A DNA stretch of 46,741 nt from assembly GCA_017406005.1 (NCBI GenBank), contig JAFQZI010000141.1, forward strand, positions 1 through 46,741, read 5' to 3'. Of the stretch, positions 178-8,496 are shown in pieces. Position numbers and translations under genes: made by a program. The notes under the pieces were generated by a model that did no database searches, was not told where the DNA came from, and saw only the letters and a program-made list of their open reading frames with translations. This DNA is from Oscillospiraceae bacterium (GTDB lineage Bacteria; Bacillota; Clostridia; Oscillospirales; Oscillospiraceae). The first letter of the stretch is position 1, and every line of letters starts with the position of its first letter.

Positions 178-448
178 GAAAAAAAGATTGAATTATCCCG
201 GAAAACAGGGTATACTGAAAACAGAGATAAAAGTGACAAAGGATTTTGCATTTTGAATAGGATAGGAGGAACCATCATGAACATTCCCGAGAACATTCTC
301 AATACCCTCACTGACGAGCAGAAGAGGAAAGCCGAAGCTGCTCAGTCTTCGGAAGAACTTCTCGCAATAGCAAAGGAATCCGGGCAGGAACTGACCGATG
401 AACAGCTGCAGGCAGTTGCTGGCGGACTCTGCTGGGAAAATTGCCTGG
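178..448 (+). repeat. Precursor cassette, copy 1 (promoter + 5' leader + leader-peptide DNA)
   Basis: This block recurs at 5643-5913 with a constant offset of 5465 bases and no indel that I can see. It spans the promoter, the untranslated leader, the Shine-Dalgarno and the first ~57 codons of the precursor. Similarity ends in the core-peptide codons. On the left it ends in the A-run just before the -35 box. The pattern suggests duplication or gene conversion of an expression-plus-leader cassette followed by divergence of the core. Confidence 0.85.
188..216 (+). promoter_or_regulatory. SigA-type promoter of RiPP precursor 1
   Basis: TTGAAT (188-193), 17-base spacer, TATACT (211-216). The same -35 and -10 boxes with the same spacing, differing by one spacer base, precede the second precursor, so the two genes should be co-expressed. 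The likely 5' leader is about 55 bases and carries GGAGGA at 266-271 before the ATG at 277. Confidence 0.75.
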
Positions 449-459
449 ACGATTTTTAA
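277..459 (+). CDS. Nif11-type-leader RiPP precursor peptide 1 (core ...CWENC...)
   Basis: This is a 60-residue precursor. Residues 1-50 form an acidic, helical leader of the Nif11-like kind (T-D-E-Q-K, E-E-L-L-A-I-A-K-E-S-G, E-L-T-D-E-Q-L-Q-A-V-A) ending in Gly-Gly at 49-50, the usual cleavage site. The 10-residue core that follows is LCWENCLDDF, with two Cys bracketing Trp-Glu-Asn. I chose ATG 277 because GGAGGA lies six bases upstream and the paralogue starts at the same place. It is monocistronic, with its own promoter and a terminator-like hairpin downstream. Its maturase is presumably the radical SAM protein encoded 5.5 kb away beside precursor 2. No double-glycine peptidase/exporter is encoded in the window. 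Confidence 0.85.
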   Translation: MNIPENILNTLTDEQKRKAEAAQSSEELLAIAKESGQELTDEQLQAVAGGLCWENCLDDF

Positions 460-462
460 TCT

Positions 463-485
463 GTCAGGGGGACGGTTCTCCTGAC
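463..485 (+). repeat. REP-like short palindrome, copy 1
   Basis: GTCAGG (463-468) and CCTGAC (480-485) are inverted repeats around an 11-base centre containing GGACGGTTCT. Related sequences occur at 4528-4548, 8393-8412 and 8432-8454. It sits immediately after the stop codon of precursor 1. From memory, similar GGGACGGTTCTC palindromes are dispersed in many clostridial genomes. Confidence 0.6.
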
Positions 486-580
486 ATAAAAAATCTCACT
501 CTTCCCCTCCGTGTCTGCTGCCCCCGCATTACGCTGCTATGCTGTAAACTGTCGAAAGTGAGAAAAACGGAATACAGTGC

Positions 581-616
581 CCCGGATCCTTCTTCGGAAG
601 GGACCCGGGTATTTTT
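581..616 (+). terminator. Terminator-like hairpin downstream of precursor 1
   Basis: The stem has CCCGG...CCTTC on the left (581-592) and GAAGGGACCCGGG on the right (597-609), with one internal mismatch and a short TTCG-type loop. It is followed by TATTTTT. The hairpin lies about 120 bases after the precursor 1 stop codon and would end that short transcript. Confidence 0.6.
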
Positions 617-645
617 ATGCCAAAAATCCGGAAGGGAACCGCGAT

Positions 646-750
646 ATGTTTTCGCCGGAATACCGGCTCGATCTGCCTGAGGCGGAAGAATTCATACCGC
701 TTAGACCTGTTTGTGGCTGGGAATGCTGCACTTTGGCAGGTGAGCCGTAA
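646..750 (+). CDS. Possible small Cys/Trp peptide (34 aa)
   Basis: An open frame from ATG 646 to TAA 748-750 encodes 34 residues. It starts MFSPEYRLDLPEAEEF and contains VCGWECC near the C-terminus. GGAAGGGA (629-636) gives a plausible Shine-Dalgarno nine bases before the ATG. The acidic front half and the C-x-W-E-C-C cluster are reminiscent of a leader plus modified core and of the CW(E/D)NC cores of the two recognised precursors, but there is no Gly-Gly site and no Nif11 leader. It lies beyond the precursor 1 terminator and ends 15 bases before the convergent membrane-protein gene. I see no clear promoter of its own. It could be chance or a gene remnant. Confidence 0.35.
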   Translation: MFSPEYRLDLPEAEEFIPLRPVCGWECCTLAGEP

Positions 751-764
751 GTAAAAATGCGAAT

Positions 765-1469
765 TTAAGTGAACTGACGCGCAGATTGCACTGTTTCTGT
801 CGGATTCAGCCTGAGAGAGGTTCTGTTGTGAAGCAGGCGCAGAACTGTTGCAATGCCAAAGGTGAGCGGCATAAAGGAAAGCATGGAAATCCAGGAAGGA
901 ATACGGGTTAGAAATCCGTAAAAATCATCCCATCCGCCGTTATCCGGACCGAGAATCTCAACCATAAAATAATAGACCATTGCGTAGAGCATCACAGGGA
1001 TCAGAGCGAACAGGGATTCCCGCAAGGGAATCACGTGATTCGTAATAAAGAAGCAAAAGGCAATCATAGCCACGACCGGGCACACACCGTGCAGGAAAAA
1101 ACGGGAACCGGTGAAAATAAGGACGAAACCCTTTACCGGGGCCAGGATGCAAAGTGAAATCAGAAAAGTCAGCCCTACAGATGTTACGCCGGCAAACAGC
1201 AGGTCCACCATCCAGTCAGGAAGATAGAAATTCTTCGTTCGCAAACCGTCAATCGTATATGGCAGAGACATCATCATCGCAATACCGCACAGGATATTCG
1301 AGTTTACCGTGAACATGCAGAATGTACGCAGTCCCATATGATCAAAATTGACATCATAAAGCGTGGTCAGATTCATGGTTACACCGATACAGACGCAGAC
1401 GGCAACCACGGCTGAGCTGAACATCGCGGCGAGGCATCTTCTTCTTGTTATACTGAATGTATCGTTCAT
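765..1469 (-). CDS. Six-TM FAR-17a/AIG1-like (Pr6Pr-type) membrane protein
   Basis: A 234-residue integral membrane protein with about six hydrophobic segments. The pattern F-T-V-N-S-N-I in the second segment region and L-H-G-V-C-P-V / N-H-V-I-P further on, with P-D-N-G-G-W-D-D-F-Y-G-F near the end, resembles the FAR-17a/AIG1/ADTRP family. Animal members are intramembrane Thr/His hydrolases of fatty-acid esters of hydroxy fatty acids, and a Thr and a His are present in similar context here. ATG 1469 overlaps the NRPS stop codon (ATGA), with AAAGGAG upstream, so translation should be coupled to the NRPS; the in-phase TTG at 1478 is too close to that SD. Its role next to an NRPS, perhaps on a lipid product, is inference. 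Premature termination in the NRPS may reduce its expression. Confidence 0.5.
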   Translation of the reverse strand: MNDTFSITRRRCLAAMFSSAVVAVCVCIGVTMNLTTLYDVNFDHMGLRTFCMFTVNSNILCGIAMMMSLPYTIDGLRTKNFYLPDWMVDLLFAGVTSVGLTFLISLCILAPVKGFVLIFTGSRFFLHGVCPVVAMIAFCFFITNHVIPLRESLFALIPVMLYAMVYYFMVEILGPDNGGWDDFYGFLTRIPSWISMLSFMPLTFGIATVLRLLHNRTSLRLNPTETVQSARQFT

Positions 1470-4429
1470 CTGTCGCAAATCTCCTTTAGACAGGACAGGG
1501 GCCGGTTCTTTGTCTCTCCCAGGATCCAGTTCAGCAGCCCCGAAAAGAGGCCTACGGCACGGCTGATCTTCTCCTCGGAATAGATCGCCCGGTTAAACAT
1601 GAGGTATGCAACGATCCTGTCCGGATTTTCGATAATCTGTACGGCCAGGCTTCTGGAATTGATCGGGGCATGGCTCTCCACGTTCAGCCTTGTCCCGCCG
1701 ATGGAACCGATGCTGTTGCCGCTCATGATTTCCGCCGTCTCATAGCAGACGATCATCATATCATGCTCAAAGACATTGTTCCGCATCACGCTCCACTCAT
1801 AGGAACAGTGTGCAAGGCTTTCGTTGGATCTGGCGGAAACTTCATTAAGGAATTCCTGCAGTGTCATTTCCCCGCTGATTTTAAGGCCGACGGTGACATA
1901 GCGGAAGATGCAGCCGAAAGCGTTGCGGCGCACGTCATCTGTCCTGTCGTGGAAGATCCAGTCCAGCATGACATTGTTTTTCTTTTCCATTGCATGGATT
2001 CCCAGAAGTCCGACCGCAGTGAACAGGATATTTCTGGAAATATGGTTTTTCTCCTCCCAGGCTTTCATCTCCTCCGGCGAAATCGTGCGTATCAGCGGCA
2101 GGAAAGCTCTGCCGGCAGGACGTGCCTGCAGATCCGGAAGCAGGTTGATGCACCAGTCGTCCTTCTCATAGGCTGTCTCAAAGAATCTCCGGTCTTCTCG
2201 GTACTTTTTGCCTGCCCGCATCTGTTCCTGTTGATACAGATACGCATAGTAGGTATCCGTCGGCAGAGGCTCGCCCTTCCATGCGCGGACAATATCTTCA
2301 TTCAGAAGCTGCATTCCCGTCCCGTCTGTCATGATATGGTGGATATCAAAAAACAGGTAGACGGCTTCTTCTGTCTGATAAAGGCCGGCATGGACGAGAG
2401 GCTCGCCGGTCAGGCGGAACGGGCGGAGCAGGCTTTCCCTTTTTCGGGCGAACTCTGCTTCGGTGGTTTTCTCCACAGAGAGCTTAAGGATCTTTTCCGG
2501 TGCAATTCGCTGGACAAGCGAGCATTCTTCATTGAATTCAAAAACAGTGTACAGAGCTGTCCGGTTCGCCAGTGCTTTGTTTACCGAATCGCACAGACGG
2601 CTGGCGTCCGTATCCGCGGGAAAGCGGTACAGTCTCGGCAGGTTCCACATGATGGTGTTGGGGGAAAAGATGCAGTAATCAAAAATCGAGATCTGATTTG
2701 GTGTAAGGGGATGGGATTTCCCTCGTTCCCGTTTTTCTGTAACGGCCGGATCTTCCTGTGCTGCCCCGGCCTGTCGGTTATCATAGATGACTGCAATGCG
2801 TTCCGGTGTGCAGCCTTCAAAAATATCCGAAGCGAGAAGGACGGGCAGATTTGCCGCAGCCAGCACGCGCATTGTTCCGAGAGAGTCCCCTCCCAGATGG
2901 TAAAAATTATCCCGGATACCGACCGGACCCGCCTGTAGGGCTTTTGCGAATGCCTGGCACAGGACCTGTTCCGTTTCCGTGCGGGGAGGGATGTAATCCG
3001 TCTTTTCCGCCTTCGGTTCAGGCTTCGGAAGGGCTCTCCGGTTCATCTTGCCGTTGGGGAGCAAAGGCACTTCGTCCACCTTCAGGAAGAAGGATGGGAT
3101 CATATAATATGGCAGGTACTGTGCCATCTTCTCCCGGACATCCAGTTCATCAAACGTGATATTCTCCGTATAGTACAGACAGACGAAGGCGTGGAGCGGA
3201 TCTTCAAACCCTCTGGCCGCGCACCATTTCACGCCCAGTATTTTCTTCGCGACCGCCTCGATTTCCGCCGGTTCGATCCGGTTGCCGTTGATCTTGATCA
3301 TGTCCGTGCTGCGGCCGAGCAGTACAAGGTTCCCGTCCGGCAGCTTTTTGCCGATATCGCCGGTATGGTACAGGCCTCCCCGCAGCGCTTCCGCAGTCTT
3401 GTCCGGCAGATTGATATATCCGCGGAAGAAAGGATCCTCCACGCAGATTTCGCCTTCGGTTCCGTCCGCAACTTCCTTTCCGTCCTCATCCAGGATGCGG
3501 AGAACAATCTGATCCGGATCAGGCTTCCCGACAGGACAGGTTTCATATGGCCTGTCAATGATGAACTCTGCCAGAGGGAACCCGCACTCGCTCATGGAAT
3601 AGCCGTTCACCAGTTCTTTCCCTTCGACGAAGATGCCGTTTGCAGGTTCTCCGCCGATCTGGATCTGGCGGATTGTCGGTCCAGGATCCCCGATCAGGCG
3701 GATCAGGGAGGGGGAGCAGTAGGTGACGGTAATGCGGTTGTCCCAGTAATACTGGCGGAGCAAAACCGGGTTTTTGATGATGCTGTACGGAACGACAAAA
3801 GCATGGCAGCCGTCATAAACGGCGTAGATGTAGCGCCGGATGGCAGCAACGAAATTCAGCGGCGGGATCAGGGCCAGCCTGTCGGATTCGTCAATCCGGG
3901 GTTTCCCGTTCCTCGGATCGAGAGAAGCGGCCTGGATCAGTCTGATGCTGCCGTATTCATGCAGCGCTCCTTTCGGATTTCCCGTGGTGCCGGAGGTATA
4001 GACCGCGAAAGCGGCGTCCCGGATGCCGGGCTTCTCATAACCGGATTCCGGTTCTGTCTTCAGGATCTCCTCCCAGGCTTCCGCGTCTATTGTGGCTTTG
4101 CAGCTGCAGTCCTTGCGGATATAGGCAATCCGCTCCGGGGGATAATTGTCCTCCACCATGGTGAAGGCGGCACCGGCTTTTCATACACCCAGCACCGCGA
4201 TCAGCGGGACAGCGCCTCGGGGCAGGCACAGAAATACAAAGTCCTCCCGGCCGATCTTTTTTGCTTTCAGCCAGGCGTAGACCCGTCCGGACAGTTCGTC
4301 TACCTGCCGTCTGCTTAAGCCGCGCGGGTGGCGTTCATCCGTCAGTGCCAGAGCGGCAGGATTGTCCGACACGTGTTTTGCCCACGCATCCAGAATAATT
4401 TCCGTTTGATCCAGAAAGCTCAGATCCAT
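1466..4429 (-). pseudogene. Single-module NRPS (A-PCP-C) with an in-frame TGA
   Basis: From ATG 4429 (AAGGAGGG just upstream) the frame encodes 987 codons, with codon 83 (4183-4181) being TGA. The flanks read V-L-G-V-stop-K-A-G-A-A-F, exactly the adenylation-domain motif usually read GVWKAGAA or GVLKAGAA, so a single change such as TGG to TGA is enough to explain it; there is no frameshift. Domains after the stop are intact. The A domain has YTSGTTGNPKG at ~144-154, YHTGDIG near 354-360 and the A10 lysine in NGKMNRRALP near 461. The carrier domain has GGDS with its phosphopantetheine serine near 516. The condensation domain has HHIMTDG at ~697-703. Order A-PCP-C with no thioesterase suggests activation of one residue and condensation with an external acceptor. 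As read it is a recent nonsense allele; readthrough or a sequencing error are alternatives. A weak internal start at 4159 would lose the first A-domain subregion. Confidence 0.8.
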
Positions 4430-4477
4430 GTTTGTTCCCTCCTTCGGGTTTTCAGCACGGTACAATTAAAAATACGA

Positions 4478-4493
4478 GATAAAATATTTTATC
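4478..4493. promoter_or_regulatory. 16-bp perfect palindrome over the NRPS -10 box
   Basis: GATAAAATATTTTATC is a perfect dyad overlapping the -10 hexamer of the minus-strand NRPS promoter. Its position would suit a repressor operator. AT-rich palindromes also arise by chance, and no regulator gene is adjacent. Confidence 0.35.
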
Positions 4494-4514
4494 ATACTTC
4501 TTCTGTTCAAACAA
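4486..4514 (-). promoter_or_regulatory. Promoter of the NRPS-membrane protein operon
   Basis: On the minus strand: TTGTTT (4514-4509), 17-base spacer ending in TGA, TAAAAT (4491-4486). The extended -10 and spacing match another promoter in this window (15007-15035). It is divergent from the HNH gene promoter at 4614. Confidence 0.6.
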
Positions 4515-4527
4515 TGATAAAGTATTA

Positions 4528-4548
4528 GACAGGAAACGGTTCCCTGTC
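4528..4548. repeat. REP-like short palindrome, copy 2
   Basis: GACAGG (4528-4533) pairs with CCTGTC (4543-4548) around AAACGGTTC. It shares the ACGGTTC centre with the copies near both precursor/maturase gene ends. It lies between the divergent NRPS and HNH promoters. Confidence 0.55.
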
Positions 4549-4613
4549 TTGGAGAGAGGGTGAGAGGGCAGGTTAAATCGCTAAAGTGCGTAGGCGGGGA
4601 CGGCGCGGGTATA

Positions 4614-4641
4614 TTGACAGTGCGGATGTTTGTGGTACAAT
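4614..4641 (+). promoter_or_regulatory. SigA-type promoter of the HNH gene
   Basis: A perfect TTGACA (4614-4619), 16-base spacer, TACAAT (4636-4641). The HNH start codon is at 4732, preceded by GAAGGGG, giving a leader of about 80 bases. The rest of 4430-4731 holds only the divergent NRPS promoter, the palindrome and the REP-like copy. Confidence 0.7.
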
Positions 4642-4731
4642 TCTGTCGTCAGGAAAGCGGAGGTGTTGAACAGAATAATGTGTGAGGCGAACACGCAGAA
4701 GATCATCCGCGGTTTGTGAGAGAAGGGGAAA

Positions 4732-5721
4732 ATGGGATCCGAATATAAAACGATAACCCGTGACGGGGTACGAAAGCCCGCGCATGTGGTCCTGATGGAG
4801 GAATATCTCGGCAGACCGCTGCGGGGCAACGAGGTGGTTCATCATATCAACGGGGAAAAAGATGACAACCGCCTGGCCAATCTGCAGGTGATGGACCGGG
4901 CGGAGCATTCAAGGCTGCATGCTTCAGGGATCACGCCGAATGCCGATACCCTGAAAAAGCTGAGTCTGAGCCATAAAGGGAAGCCATCCGCTAACCGGAA
5001 GCTGACAAGGGAACAGGTTCAGAGAATTGCGGAATTGCTGAAAGCCGGTGTCTCGGCAAGGAAGATAGCGGAGGAGTATTCTGTCTCGGGACCGAGTATT
5101 GTTTCGATTCGGGACGGGAAGTCTTACCGGGATTTCCTTGAGGGCTATACGGATTCCGATTTCCCGCTTCAGGAGATAAAGCGGGGCCGGGCGAACCGGA
5201 CTGAGCGTAAGCTGGATCCGAAAGAGCTGGGATTTGTCCGCATTGCACTGATGTAAGGGGAATCGGTGCCGGTAATCGCAAAGCGTTTCGGCATTTCGCT
5301 TTCGAGTGTGAGAGCCATCCGGGACGGGCTGACCTATCGGGAGATCCCCTGGCCGCAGGAGGAAGCCAGGCTGTTCCTCACGCACGATATGCCCGCTGTT
5401 ATCCGGATCCTGCTGGAAGAACCCATGAGCGAAAAAGAGGAATACCATGCCCTGACGGAGGATTATCATCTGGTTCCGAATGTCGGCACGGTTCTGGCGC
5501 TGAAGATGGTCCGGAAGGCGATGGAAGGGGAGAGGGACCTCGCCCTGCTGCTTTTGCTGACGGCCGGATACGGAGACTGGGTGCAGCAGCTGATCCGGGA
5601 GGAGTCTGTCCTCTGGCAGACGGTTTTCACCCCTTTGAAAGACAAAAAAAGATTGAATTATCCCAGAAAACAGGGTATACTGAAAACTGAGATAAAAGTG
5701 ACAATTTTTTTTACATTTTGA
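4732..5721 (+). pseudogene. HNH endonuclease with HTH repeats, interrupted by TAA
   Basis: ATG 4732 opens a free-standing HNH nuclease of the homing or phage type. The N-terminal ~65 residues contain G-N-E-V-V-H-H-I-N-G-E-K-D-D-N-R-L-A-N-L-Q and H-S-R-L-H, the HNH ββα-metal core. A helix-turn-helix unit follows at ~85-135 (L-L-K-A-G-V-S-A-R-K-I-A...I-R-D-G-K-S-Y). The frame then meets TAA at 5254-5256 and continues in the same frame directly into a second, parallel HTH unit (G-E-S-V-P-V-I-A-K-R-F-G-I-S...I-R-D-G-L-T-Y). The stop aligns with an ordinary residue in the first repeat, so it is a nonsense mutation, not a gene end. Beyond that lies a helical C-terminal region of unknown function. 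From about 5643 the frame runs into the duplicated precursor cassette and stops at 5719-5721, so the original C-terminus was probably also cut off by arrival of that cassette. Confidence 0.75.
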
Positions 5722-5913
5722 ATAGGATAGGAGGAACCATCATGAACATTCCCGAGAACATTTTCAATACTCTCACTGACGAGCAGAAGAAGAAGGCCGA
5801 AGCTGCTCAGTCTCCGGAAGAACTTCTCGCAATAGCAAAGGAATCCGGGCAGGAACTGACCGATGAACAGCTGCAGGCGATTGCCGGCGGAATTTGCTGG
5901 GATAATTGCAATT
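5643..5913 (+). repeat. Precursor cassette, copy 2
   Basis: Second copy of the block at 178-448, with the same spacing from -35 box to core codons. Differences are scattered substitutions, plus a cluster in the AT-rich part of the leader (about 5706-5713). Its left edge falls within the reading frame of the HNH pseudogene, which dates the cassette's arrival here after that gene. Confidence 0.85.
5653..5681 (+). promoter_or_regulatory. SigA-type promoter of the RiPP maturation operon
   Basis: TTGAAT (5653-5658), 17-base spacer, TATACT (5676-5681), matching precursor 1. It should drive precursor 2, the radical SAM maturase and the downstream unknown gene, since no terminator is visible between them. 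Confidence 0.75.
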
Positions 5914-5933
5914 ACCAAGCCGTTCTCCTCTGA
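5742..5933 (+). CDS. Nif11-type-leader RiPP precursor peptide 2 (core ...CWDNC...)
   Basis: This is a 63-residue precursor whose leader (1-50) differs from precursor 1 at only a handful of positions and again ends in Gly-Gly at 49-50. The core is ICWDNCNYQAVLL, 13 residues. Both cores place C-W-(E/D)-N-C at residues 2-6 after the cleavage site and then diverge. The start is fixed by GGAGGA six bases before ATG 5742. It lies 34 bases ahead of the maturase start, so it is almost certainly that enzyme's substrate. Conserved W-x-N recalls the three-residue motif cross-linked by cyclophane-forming radical SAM enzymes, while the paired Cys would allow a thioether or disulfide. The actual modification cannot be read from sequence. 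Confidence 0.87.
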   Translation: MNIPENIFNTLTDEQKKKAEAAQSPEELLAIAKESGQELTDEQLQAIAGGICWDNCNYQAVLL

Positions 5934-5967
5934 TAAGAAACCAGGCTCTTATTACCTCGGAAACTGT

Positions 5968-7332
5968 ATGAGCAGCACAGAAATGCAAAAGAGCAGCTGC
6001 GCCTCGGCGAAGTGCACAGCCGGAGAGGCAGGCTGGCACATTTCGCGTTACAACCTGAGCGCTCCGGTCCCGGGCAGCGAAGCGGTTGCGATCGCCAACC
6101 TGTTCAAAGGGACCTGTGCTGAATATTCTCCGCTGGAGCTTTACCTGCTCAGCATTCTGGACAGGCTGGACGAGCACCATCCGATCATTGAGCGCTTTGC
6201 CAAACGCGGCATCATCACCCGGATCGACGAGCGTGCGGCTCTGGACATGATGGGGAGGGAAGCCTGTGCCGGACCTCACGGGATCAGCCTGACCATCTGC
6301 CCGACCATGAACTGCAATTTTGACTGTCCTTATTGCTTTGAGAATCACAGGCCGGGGAGGATGAGTGCAGAAGTACAGGATGATGTTGTCAGTCTGACCC
6401 GGCGTATGCTGAAAGCCTGTGGAGGAAGACATCTGAGCGTGACCTGGTTCGGCGGTGAACCGCTGCTCGCCATCGACGTGATTGAAGCGCTTTCGCTGCG
6501 CCTGATAACACTGGCGCAGGAATTCAGTGCCGAATACTCGGCCGGGATTATCACCAACGGGTATCTGCTTACACAGAAGAATATCGACATCCTCGAGCGC
6601 TCAAGTGTCAGCAGCTGTCAGGTCACTGTTGACGGGCTGGGCGGACAGCATGACGCAACCCGTCACCTCGCGGGAGGCGGGGCCACATTTGACCGGATCA
6701 TCCGGAACCTGCGGGATGGGAGAATTCCGTTCCGTGTCAGTATCCGCCAGAATGTGCAGGAAAGCAATCTGGCTGAAGTCCCCAAAGTCAGGGAGTTCAT
6801 GGAAAAGCTCGCGGAAGAATCCGGAAATAAGCTGGACTATGCACCGGCACCGGTCTACGGGAATAAGGCTGCTGACGAACGCGGCTCCCGGAGCGTTCTT
6901 CTTTGCGGTAAGGATTCGACGGATATCTGCATCCTGCAGGAAGCCGGGCGCTTCACTGCAGGCCGCGGGCACTTCTGCGGTGCGAATGTCCTGTGGTCTG
7001 TCGGAATCGACGAAAACGGAAACTTGTTCAAATGCTGGGAATCCGCTGCAGAACCTGCGCATGCTTTTGCAACAGCACGTGACTGGGATCCGGAAAAGCC
7101 GCTGGAGACGTCCTTTGCCCCGGATAATCTGACCATGTATCTGAATACCGCTCTTCCCGTGACGGACGAAGAATGCCGCGATTGCGTGTGGCTTCCGTTG
7201 TGTGTCGGCGGCTGTCCGCATCGCCGCCTGTTCTATGGGAAGAATTGTGTGGCATTCCGGAATCATCCGGAAAGCTATGTTCTGGCACTTCATGCCCGCA
7301 TCGGCAAAAATCCGCCGAAGGAGAAAAGCTGA
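5968..7332 (+). CDS. Radical SAM/SPASM peptide maturase
   Basis: A 454-residue enzyme expected to bind the precursor leader and install a radical-derived cross-link in the core. Residues ~25-100 form an N-terminal region (S-R-Y-N-L...L-S-P-L-E-type) that could hold a leader-recognition fold. The radical SAM barrel has the 4Fe-4S/SAM motif C116-x3-C120-x2-C123 and the GGEP motif at 162-165. A full SPASM domain carries two auxiliary clusters: C337, C356 (with G-x4-C), then C403-x2-C406-x5-C412-x3-C416 and C427. ATG 5968 is chosen because it clears the precursor stop by 34 bases and leaves the family-typical N-terminus; its Shine-Dalgarno is weak, so 5983 is possible and translation may depend on coupling. 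The stop overlaps the next gene (TGATG). Known relatives make sactipeptides, ranthipeptides and cyclophane peptides; I cannot assign the clade. Confidence 0.88.
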   Translation: MSSTEMQKSSCASAKCTAGEAGWHISRYNLSAPVPGSEAVAIANLFKGTCAEYSPLELYLLSILDRLDEHHPIIERFAKRGIITRIDERAALDMMGREACAGPHGISLTICPTMNCNFDCPYCFENHRPGRMSAEVQDDVVSLTRRMLKACGGRHLSVTWFGGEPLLAIDVIEALSLRLITLAQEFSAEYSAGIITNGYLLTQKNIDILERSSVSSCQVTVDGLGGQHDATRHLAGGGATFDRIIRNLRDGRIPFRVSIRQNVQESNLAEVPKVREFMEKLAEESGNKLDYAPAPVYGNKAADERGSRSVLLCGKDSTDICILQEAGRFTAGRGHFCGANVLWSVGIDENGNLFKCWESAAEPAHAFATARDWDPEKPLETSFAPDNLTMYLNTALPVTDEECRDCVWLPLCVGGCPHRRLFYGKNCVAFRNHPESYVLALHARIGKNPPKEKS

Positions 7333-8348
7333 TGAAGACGCCGTCTAACGCGATGGCCTGCAGGGCACTCTTTCTGCAGGCAGCCGGTGAAGGCCGCGGT
7401 CCGATTCTTTTCGGGGAAGACGGGGAACGCGCCTGTGAAAGGGTACTTCCGTTTCTGGAGGGTACTTCCTTTCCGGCCCTCTATCTGGAGTTTCCGCTGA
7501 AGGGGGCTCCGTTTCTGGATGTGACCGTGCTTTACGGAGGGATTCCGGAAGGCCTGCGCTTTACCCATCCTGCAGCTGCGGGTACGGAGCGGATGCTTGA
7601 CTGGTATGCCGGCGTGCAGAAAAAATATATTGACGTCTGCTTCGGCTTTGAACTGGAAATGAAAAAACCGTCCGGCAGTGCGGCGTCTGTACACTTCCAG
7701 TCTCACAGTGATACGGAGCTTGCCGGGCCCTTCTGCGAAGCGCTGGGAGACCCGGAAGCCGGCAGAAGGTATATGGAGAAAGCGTCCCGGATGCCGGAAT
7801 ACTGGCAGCTGGCTTACTTCGGGCTGTTTCGAGGCCGTCCCGGTGCTCCGCTTCGCATCTGCGGTTATATACCCATTGAGGAACAGAAACGCTGTGCGGA
7901 AGATCCTGCCCATCTGGCAGCAGTCTTCGGGCAGATCGGCTTCGTCGCCTTTGATCAGAAGATGCTTTCACAGATTTCCGAACTTCTTTCTGTCGTACAC
8001 GGCATTGTGGACTTTCAGTTCGATCTTCTGCCGGACGGGACGCTCGGAGAGACGTTTTCCTTCGATATTTGCTTCAGAATGCAGAAAACGGAAGATGTTC
8101 TCACATGTTTCCGGGAAGGACATGCCGCCCGGCTGATGACCCTGCTGGAAAGCTGGGGCATTGCGGACAGTCGTTGGAAGGAGGCTGTCGGAATGACCTT
8201 CACGAGGGTAATCCCGGTGGAGGATGAGAGGGGGAACAAAGCCTGCTTTGCCATGGTACTTACACCGAACTGGGTCAAGATCCGCTGGCGCAACGGCGTG
8301 CTTCAGCCGTCAAAAATGTACTGCGAGGGAAAAGCCAGAACGCTCTGA
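7332..8348 (+). CDS. Unrecognised 338-aa protein of the RiPP operon
   Basis: ATG 7332 overlaps the maturase stop codon, so the two are translationally coupled. The product is soluble, with no signal peptide, membrane segment, HExxH, P-loop or Cys-cluster motif that I can see. The N-terminal half alternates hydrophobic strands and helices, including K-K-Y-I-D-V-C-F-G-F-E-L. The second half contains V-D-F-Q-F-D-L-L-P-D-G-T-L-G-E-T-F and ends in basic W-V-K-I-R-W-R-N-G. The location makes it a likely second modification enzyme, a leader-binding partner or an immunity factor. I do not recognise the family. A terminator at 8464-8487 closes the operon. Confidence 0.7.
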   Translation: MKTPSNAMACRALFLQAAGEGRGPILFGEDGERACERVLPFLEGTSFPALYLEFPLKGAPFLDVTVLYGGIPEGLRFTHPAAAGTERMLDWYAGVQKKYIDVCFGFELEMKKPSGSAASVHFQSHSDTELAGPFCEALGDPEAGRRYMEKASRMPEYWQLAYFGLFRGRPGAPLRICGYIPIEEQKRCAEDPAHLAAVFGQIGFVAFDQKMLSQISELLSVVHGIVDFQFDLLPDGTLGETFSFDICFRMQKTEDVLTCFREGHAARLMTLLESWGIADSRWKEAVGMTFTRVIPVEDERGNKACFAMVLTPNWVKIRWRNGVLQPSKMYCEGKARTL

Positions 8349-8454: not shown

Positions 8455-8463
8455 ATAATACTG

Positions 8464-8496
8464 CGGGCCCTTCCGAAGAAGGGCCCGTTTGAGTTT
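8464..8496 (+). terminator. Terminator of the RiPP operon
   Basis: CGGGCCCTTC (8464-8473) pairs perfectly with GAAGGGCCCG (8478-8487) over a CGAA loop, followed by TTTGAGTTTT. The remainder of 8349-8700 holds the REP-like copies and the tig promoter; I see no gene in it. Confidence 0.8.

Follow-up and report, generated by a model that had tools for sequence, protein, structure and literature searches.

A candidate leader-guided RiPP pathway pairing a radical SAM/SPASM maturase with an ABBA-fold protein in Clostridia

Which chemistry acts on two small peptides whose cores open with the same Cys-Trp-x-Asn-Cys pattern? The question is raised by contig JAFQZI010000141.1 of an Oscillospiraceae bacterium (GCA_017406005.1), considered here from position 1 to 46,741 (the window). 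Here, two precursor genes for a ribosomally synthesized and post-translationally modified peptide (RiPP) accompany a radical S-adenosylmethionine (SAM)/SPASM maturase and a further open reading frame, ORF4. The computations covered gene content and sequence motifs, the fold predicted for ORF4 and its genomic association with the maturase, how much Trp and Cys the cores contain, and whether an exporter is present. Taken as a whole, a leader-guided pathway that combines Cys cross-links, Trp prenylation and export by an NHLM system is the somewhat likelier account of the locus. The chemical steps and their order are what we infer, as are the prenyl donor, the exporter that serves the peptides and their biological role. 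The SPASM enzyme would recognize the Nif11-like leader and cross-link core Cys residues, most likely through thioethers to nearby Asp, Glu or Asn in the manner of ranthipeptides. ORF4, perhaps with the leader as its guide too, would add an isoprenoid at the core Trp, or at Tyr in some relatives. An NHLM exporter encoded elsewhere would then cleave after Gly-Gly via its C39 peptidase domain and export the product. Since leaders are conserved while cores diversify freely, few enzymes could serve many precursors.

The Precursors and Their Relatives

Precursor 1 (60 aa, positions 277..459) and precursor 2 (63 aa, 5742..5933), both on the + strand, consist of a Nif11-like leader, Gly-Gly and a core, LCWENCLDDF in the former and ICWDNCNYQAVLL in the latter. 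As the original prediction described, the two share a leader followed by GG-x-CW(E/D)NC, after which the cores diverge; the leaders are nearly identical. At the DNA level, the two genes match almost fully from about 100 bases 5' of the start codon as far as the CWxNC codons, beyond which they differ. The leaders score 21.9 and 23.4 bits against TIGR03798 (cut-off 32.3) and 15.8 and 19.4 against Pfam Nif11 (cut-off 23.8); they are hence only Nif11-like and, by cut-off, not members of TIGR03798. A search for the DNA pattern encoding GG-x-CW-x-N-C, as had been suggested, gave matches in 2 of 200 genomes of the family: that of the window, where both precursors were recovered, and G100, with a single match. 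The G100 match was rejected as a further precursor, as it sits in a different frame of a longer ORF.

A precursor profile returned 2 matches in the window genome, 19 in uncultured Clostridiales bacterium RUG095 (G1124), which we take to be a rumen metagenome-assembled genome (MAG), 3 in a yak jejunum Clostridia MAG (G1125) and 7 in Lachnospiraceae bacterium JC7. Window-like leaders occur in 14 of the 19 RUG095 matches; these 14, one of them a broken copy, are spread over ten contigs. The G224 genome, from the same genus, yields ten leader-like matches of weaker score and, at the threshold used, no maturase belonging to the clade.

Core comparisons were based on 27 sequences. This set leaves out the two precursor-like genes of G092 (one with a 58-residue core, 9 Cys and 1 Trp, the other with a core of 87 residues, 10 Cys and 4 Trp), G1125:C63 (a 24-residue core), G1124:C156 (79 residues after GG, 5 Cys, 2 Trp), G1124:C41, G1125:C263, one copy in G1124:C109 whose leader is interrupted by a stop codon, and a false G1126:C3 match; the second G1124:C86 copy, in which the usual start position holds no ATG, was counted. 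Removal of the three G1124:C102 precursors gives a set of 24, and further removal of JC7 and G505 gives the nearest 16 intact cores (two from the window, one from yak and 13 from RUG095). Among these 16, mean identity is 71% in the leaders and 38% in the cores. At least two Cys are present in 27/27 compared cores, a count valid for the chosen set because several rows were dropped beforehand. Trp occurs in all of the nearest 16, against 1.5 expected (at 0.5%) or 5.2 (at 2%), figures that treat the cores as independent although the genes are related, and it adjoins Cys in 11 of them. In JC7, four of seven cores contain Trp and the remaining three Tyr.

ORF4 and the Core Trp

ORF4 (338 aa, 7332..8348, + strand), which the text of the original prediction does not mention, shares a single base with the maturase gene: position 7332 ends the maturase stop codon and opens the ATG of ORF4. 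Two models of the protein were obtained, the first of which was used for Foldseek. The predicted structure is a ten-stranded barrel built from five alpha-beta-beta-alpha units, as in the ABBA (PT-barrel) prenyltransferases, and the fold can be assigned from the models with near certainty. Sequence alone is silent on the matter: searches of Pfam and NCBIfam with E up to 10 gave no family for 11/11 ORF4 members, and a sequence search of the PDB yielded only weak, unrelated matches. The (N/D)DXXD motif was not found in the 338 residues, as is usual for the ABBA class. On the strands of the better model lie seven invariant charged or amide residues (E53, D63, R175, Q229, D231, K316 and K328). Identity to known ABBA enzymes is about 13% or less; the indole prenyltransferases CymD, MpnD and PriB, whose substrates are free Trp or small molecules, are 9-13% identical to ORF4.

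The gene travels with the maturase. Six loci combine ORF4, maturase and precursor in one cassette: that of the window, G1124:C53 (two copies) and all four in JC7, where four maturases and four ORF4s are matched one to one with a precursor. Maturase and ORF4 copies number 3 and 4 in RUG095 and 1 and 2 in the yak genome. Among 366 genomes of the class (E 1e-8), ORF4 was found in the window genome only, and G092 and G505 contain maturases of the clade with no ORF4. A second ORF4 subfamily is present in loci L087, L089 and L048, and in the latter two loci genes of both subfamilies stand in tandem; the second subfamily perhaps reflects a second acceptor or donor specificity.

An ABBA-fold neighbor gives the core Trp another possible role. 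Trp remains the natural candidate acceptor, with Tyr as an alternative, and prenylation of the core Trp by ORF4 is judged fairly probable. Several observations weigh against this assignment. A common fold at about 13% identity falls short of proof that prenyl groups are transferred. The maturases of G1125 and G1124:C91 have no adjoining ORF4, the copies lying elsewhere in those genomes. Three of the seven JC7 cores lack Trp, and the weak leader match G1125:C63 of the yak genome has neither Cys nor Trp. Moreover, Trp is not strictly tied to ORF4, because both precursor-like genes of the ORF4-less G092 contain it (1/58 and 4/87 core residues).

This last point belongs to the best surviving alternative, in which Trp is kept for recognition by the maturase or for target binding rather than for ORF4. 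The three G1124:C102 cores also agree with it, as they have Trp on a contig with a maturase and no ORF4. Four ORF4 copies are nevertheless present elsewhere in the RUG095 genome, the length of the G092 cores makes their Trp less telling, and the single core of G505, also ORF4-less, has neither Trp nor Tyr, although a control would need more than two genomes. Retention of Trp for such other purposes is considered unlikely. A little less probable still is that ORF4 has the ABBA fold and no part in peptide prenylation, acting on a small molecule or persisting as a leader-binding relic. Its low identity to known enzymes and lack of a family match suit such a role, and a fold does not show function. 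The one-to-one pairing in the JC7 cassettes, the one-base overlap with the window maturase, the invariant residues on the strands and the Trp of all 16 nearest cores argue for prenylation of the peptide instead.

The Maturase and the Core Cys

The maturase (454 aa, 5968..7332, + strand, ATG at 5968) carries the complete radical SAM motif (C116/C120/C123) and seven SPASM cysteines (C337, C356, C403, C406, C412, C416 and C427) that had been predicted for it, and all ten are invariant in 8/8 aligned members, the window included. Radical SAM and auxiliary-cluster Cys motifs of this kind are those by which ranthipeptide maturases are recognized, and by its motifs the enzyme would qualify as one; a ranthipeptide product would have Cys sulfur joined to a beta or gamma carbon. 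Among 25 NCBIfam models listed, TIGR04085, the general SPASM domain, is the sole one whose cut-off is passed (42.6 vs. 27 bits). The top-scoring model is TIGR04463 (180.5 bits, cut-off 525), followed by Clo7bot (162.6, cut-off 600), FlmE/OhkG (144.5), CefB (143.4, cut-off 600), geopeptide (120.5) and the PapB model NF047865 (100.4, cut-off 340). Lower scores were obtained with DynA (75.7), with the cyclophane-named YhhB (58.6), AmcB (47.2) and GrrM/OscB (45.5) and with SCIFF (58, cut-off 425). The TIGR04463, Clo7bot, CefB, PapB and DynA models are matched by 8/8 members scanned. The highest scores are against families of Cys-rich peptides. PapB, which makes thioethers, gives the best score among the families that could be compared by their chemistry, a comparison outside which the five higher-scoring families lie. 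In a PDB profile search, 5wgg came first (E 8.7e-18, profile positions 62-424); this entry is presumably CteB, a ranthipeptide enzyme. SkfB was also among the solved relatives.

The cores point in the same direction. In the set of 24, Cys pairs spaced C-x2-3-C number 25 (14.7 after shuffling, p 0.002), and Asp or Glu follows within three residues of Cys 41 times (32.1 with Cys held fixed, p 0.004); these and the other p values for core motifs are nominal and come from about a dozen measures. Such enrichments favor Cys-centered chemistry over a W-x-N cyclophane and leave the bond type unproven. From the sequences, thioether formation by the maturase is judged probable. Some results tell against it. 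No curated maturase-family cut-off is reached, the best being 180.5 of 525. In the nearest 16 cores, the excess of Asp/Glu after Cys is not significant (25 vs. 21.8, p 0.15) and acids are enriched before Cys instead (p 0.03), and neither Asp nor Glu follows the second Cys of the second window core (ICWDNCNYQAVLL). The product of DynA holds a Trp-Asn carbon bond, so the DynA score speaks for a cyclophane.

A different Cys chemistry, with bonds to alpha-carbons as in sactipeptides or to Trp rather than to the side chains of Asp, Glu or Asn, is improbable to much the same degree as an ORF4 without peptide substrate. The SPASM architecture would be alike, SkfB is among the relatives, and Trp adjoins Cys in most of the nearest cores; PapB and 5wgg, however, are of the ranthipeptide kind according to excerpts of PMC11002830 and PMC9413430. 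The ranthipeptide-like linkage is also favored by the excess of acids after Cys, which holds in the set of 24 cores and is not significant in the nearest 16.

Triceptides are defined by a cyclophane and a conserved aromatic-x-x acceptor motif, which the compared cores do not share. The least probable alternative is the one originally proposed, a three-residue Trp-Asn cyclophane with Cys free or in a disulfide: C-W-x-N-C in the two cores of the window and in one from RUG095, a slight excess of W-x-N in the 24 cores (4 vs. 1.4 expected, p 0.05), the ubiquity of Trp in the nearest cores and the scores against DynA and the cyclophane models agree with it, but W-x-N is limited to 4/27 cores and CWxNC to just 3/27, [WFY]-x-[NDKR] falls below expectation (8 vs. 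12.8 in the 24 cores), the models for Cys-rich peptides and PapB score 1.3 to 4 times above those of DynA and the cyclophane enzymes, and the feature common to the compared cores is Cys. The scarcity of CWxNC among homologous precursors is one of the outcomes that the original prediction had named as counting against it. On the core comparison, the W-x-N cyclophane was rejected as shared chemistry of the family, for which it is unlikely; the two window peptides might still carry one.

Close relatives of the maturase are rare. At E 1e-70, they are found in 3/400 genomes of the family and 2/394 of the order, and at E 1e-60 in 5/391 of the class, the window genome being counted each time. The named relatives are those of RUG095 (73% identity in the best segment), the yak MAG (68%) and JC7 (49%). 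Among viral contigs, the profile of the maturase matched a single relative, weakly and in part, and ORF4 had none. A tree of 14 maturases did not settle the deeper branching order and speaks neither for nor against a single origin of the pairing with ORF4. A literature search by maturase family names returned unrelated papers on eye and astrocytes. Locus L018 (G505:C57) contains two tandem maturases of the clade together with exporter genes, one further radical SAM-like gene and a Nif11-like precursor that lacks Trp. At L020:7758-9191, the N-terminus of a more distantly related SPASM maturase resembles a leader peptide (FTEEQLRKIHGAKTPVDLISYAGGWGVELS).

Export

An NHLM pair, composed of a C39 peptidase-ABC protein and a second ABC subunit, is encoded on another contig of the window genome (G000:C146), where both cut-offs are passed (935.6 vs. 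853.3 and 719.5 vs. 709.4 bits). The C39 domain would be suited to Gly-Gly cleavage, and the pair may serve the window peptides. Exporter genes of a similar kind adjoin the maturases in L018 and L019.

Organization of the Locus

Two identical promoter-like boxes (TTGAAT-17-TATACT) occur on the + strand, one at 188..216 ahead of precursor 1 and the other at 5653..5681 ahead of a likely operon of precursor 2, maturase and ORF4. An AGGAGG ribosome site precedes both precursors, and a terminator-like hairpin of 11 pairs (8463..8488, + strand) marks the 3' end of the operon. The designation of the region as a RiPP island stands for its two precursors and single SPASM maturase, but is loose in that the precursors are separated by other genes. 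One is a nonribosomal peptide synthetase (NRPS)-like gene on the minus strand (1466-4465; adenylation, carrier and condensation domains); an in-frame TGA lies close to the part that encodes its N-terminus. In L092, a maturase is followed by an NRPS-like gene 33% identical to that of the window. The other encodes an HNH endonuclease with a helix-turn-helix part (4732-5256), 5' of the second promoter box, and is possibly linked to the precursor duplication. Downstream of the hairpin lie genes that we take to be those of trigger factor, ClpP, ClpX and Lon. The locus has no fixed genomic place, because the maturases of L006 and L007 have other surroundings.

Comparison With Known Systems and Implications

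The system shares features with several known pathways. Like PapB, the freyrasin enzyme, the maturase is a SPASM radical SAM protein, predicted to act on Cys-rich cores; PapB is spacing-tolerant and links Cys to Asp or Glu at spacings of 0 to 6 (excerpt of PMC9413430). The window cores differ in lacking CX3D repeats, and the locus in its Nif11-like leader and prenyltransferase-like partner. CteB (5wgg), the thermocellin/SCIFF maturase, is the nearest solved structure by profile, whereas the low SCIFF score and the dissimilar precursor set the window enzyme apart.

A parallel to ORF4 is MppC, an ABBA enzyme that geranylates Trp of a Nif11-leader lanthipeptide, depends on the leader and favors the peptide in its ring form (excerpt of PMC12715784). 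By description, the MppC/MppE system shares with the window an ABBA prenyltransferase, a Nif11-like leader with L(X)4L and Trp as the prenyl site (same excerpt); there the ring is made by LanM, whereas at the window locus a radical SAM enzyme would make it. The cyanobactin prenyltransferases KgpF, LynF and PagF are also ABBA-type enzymes acting on RiPP side chains, Trp included, to judge from excerpts of PMC11002830 and PMC12715784. They differ in being leader-independent (PMC12715784, in part); the ORF4 family matches no NCBIfam or Pfam model. In prochlorosins, one promiscuous enzyme, ProcM, serves many Nif11-leader precursors (excerpt of PMC10783134). The 14 scattered RUG095 precursors, alike in their leaders and hypervariable in their cores, resemble this arrangement; ProcM differs in its LanM chemistry and its picocyanobacterial hosts.

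Radical SAM cross-linking and prenylation are each already known in RiPPs. Among the matches listed from the open-licence PubMed Central (PMC) literature, none, by title or opening of the abstract, described a pathway joining the two. The locus may tentatively, with the balance close to even, represent a new class of RiPPs from Clostridia-type bacteria of the gut and rumen, where Cys macrocycles made by radical SAM chemistry and an isoprenoid on Trp would meet in one peptide, through a sequence-orphan, leader-guided ABBA enzyme, and one or a few enzyme pairs would serve a scattered library of hypervariable precursors. The ORF4 family would extend the ABBA prenyltransferases, by fold alone, into sequence space unrecognized by the family libraries searched, and the natural precursor set would be a ready library for probing the tolerance of a radical SAM and prenyltransferase pair. 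If true, the pathway would be a lipidated radical SAM counterpart of the prochlorosins and a new route to lipid-tagged ring peptides.

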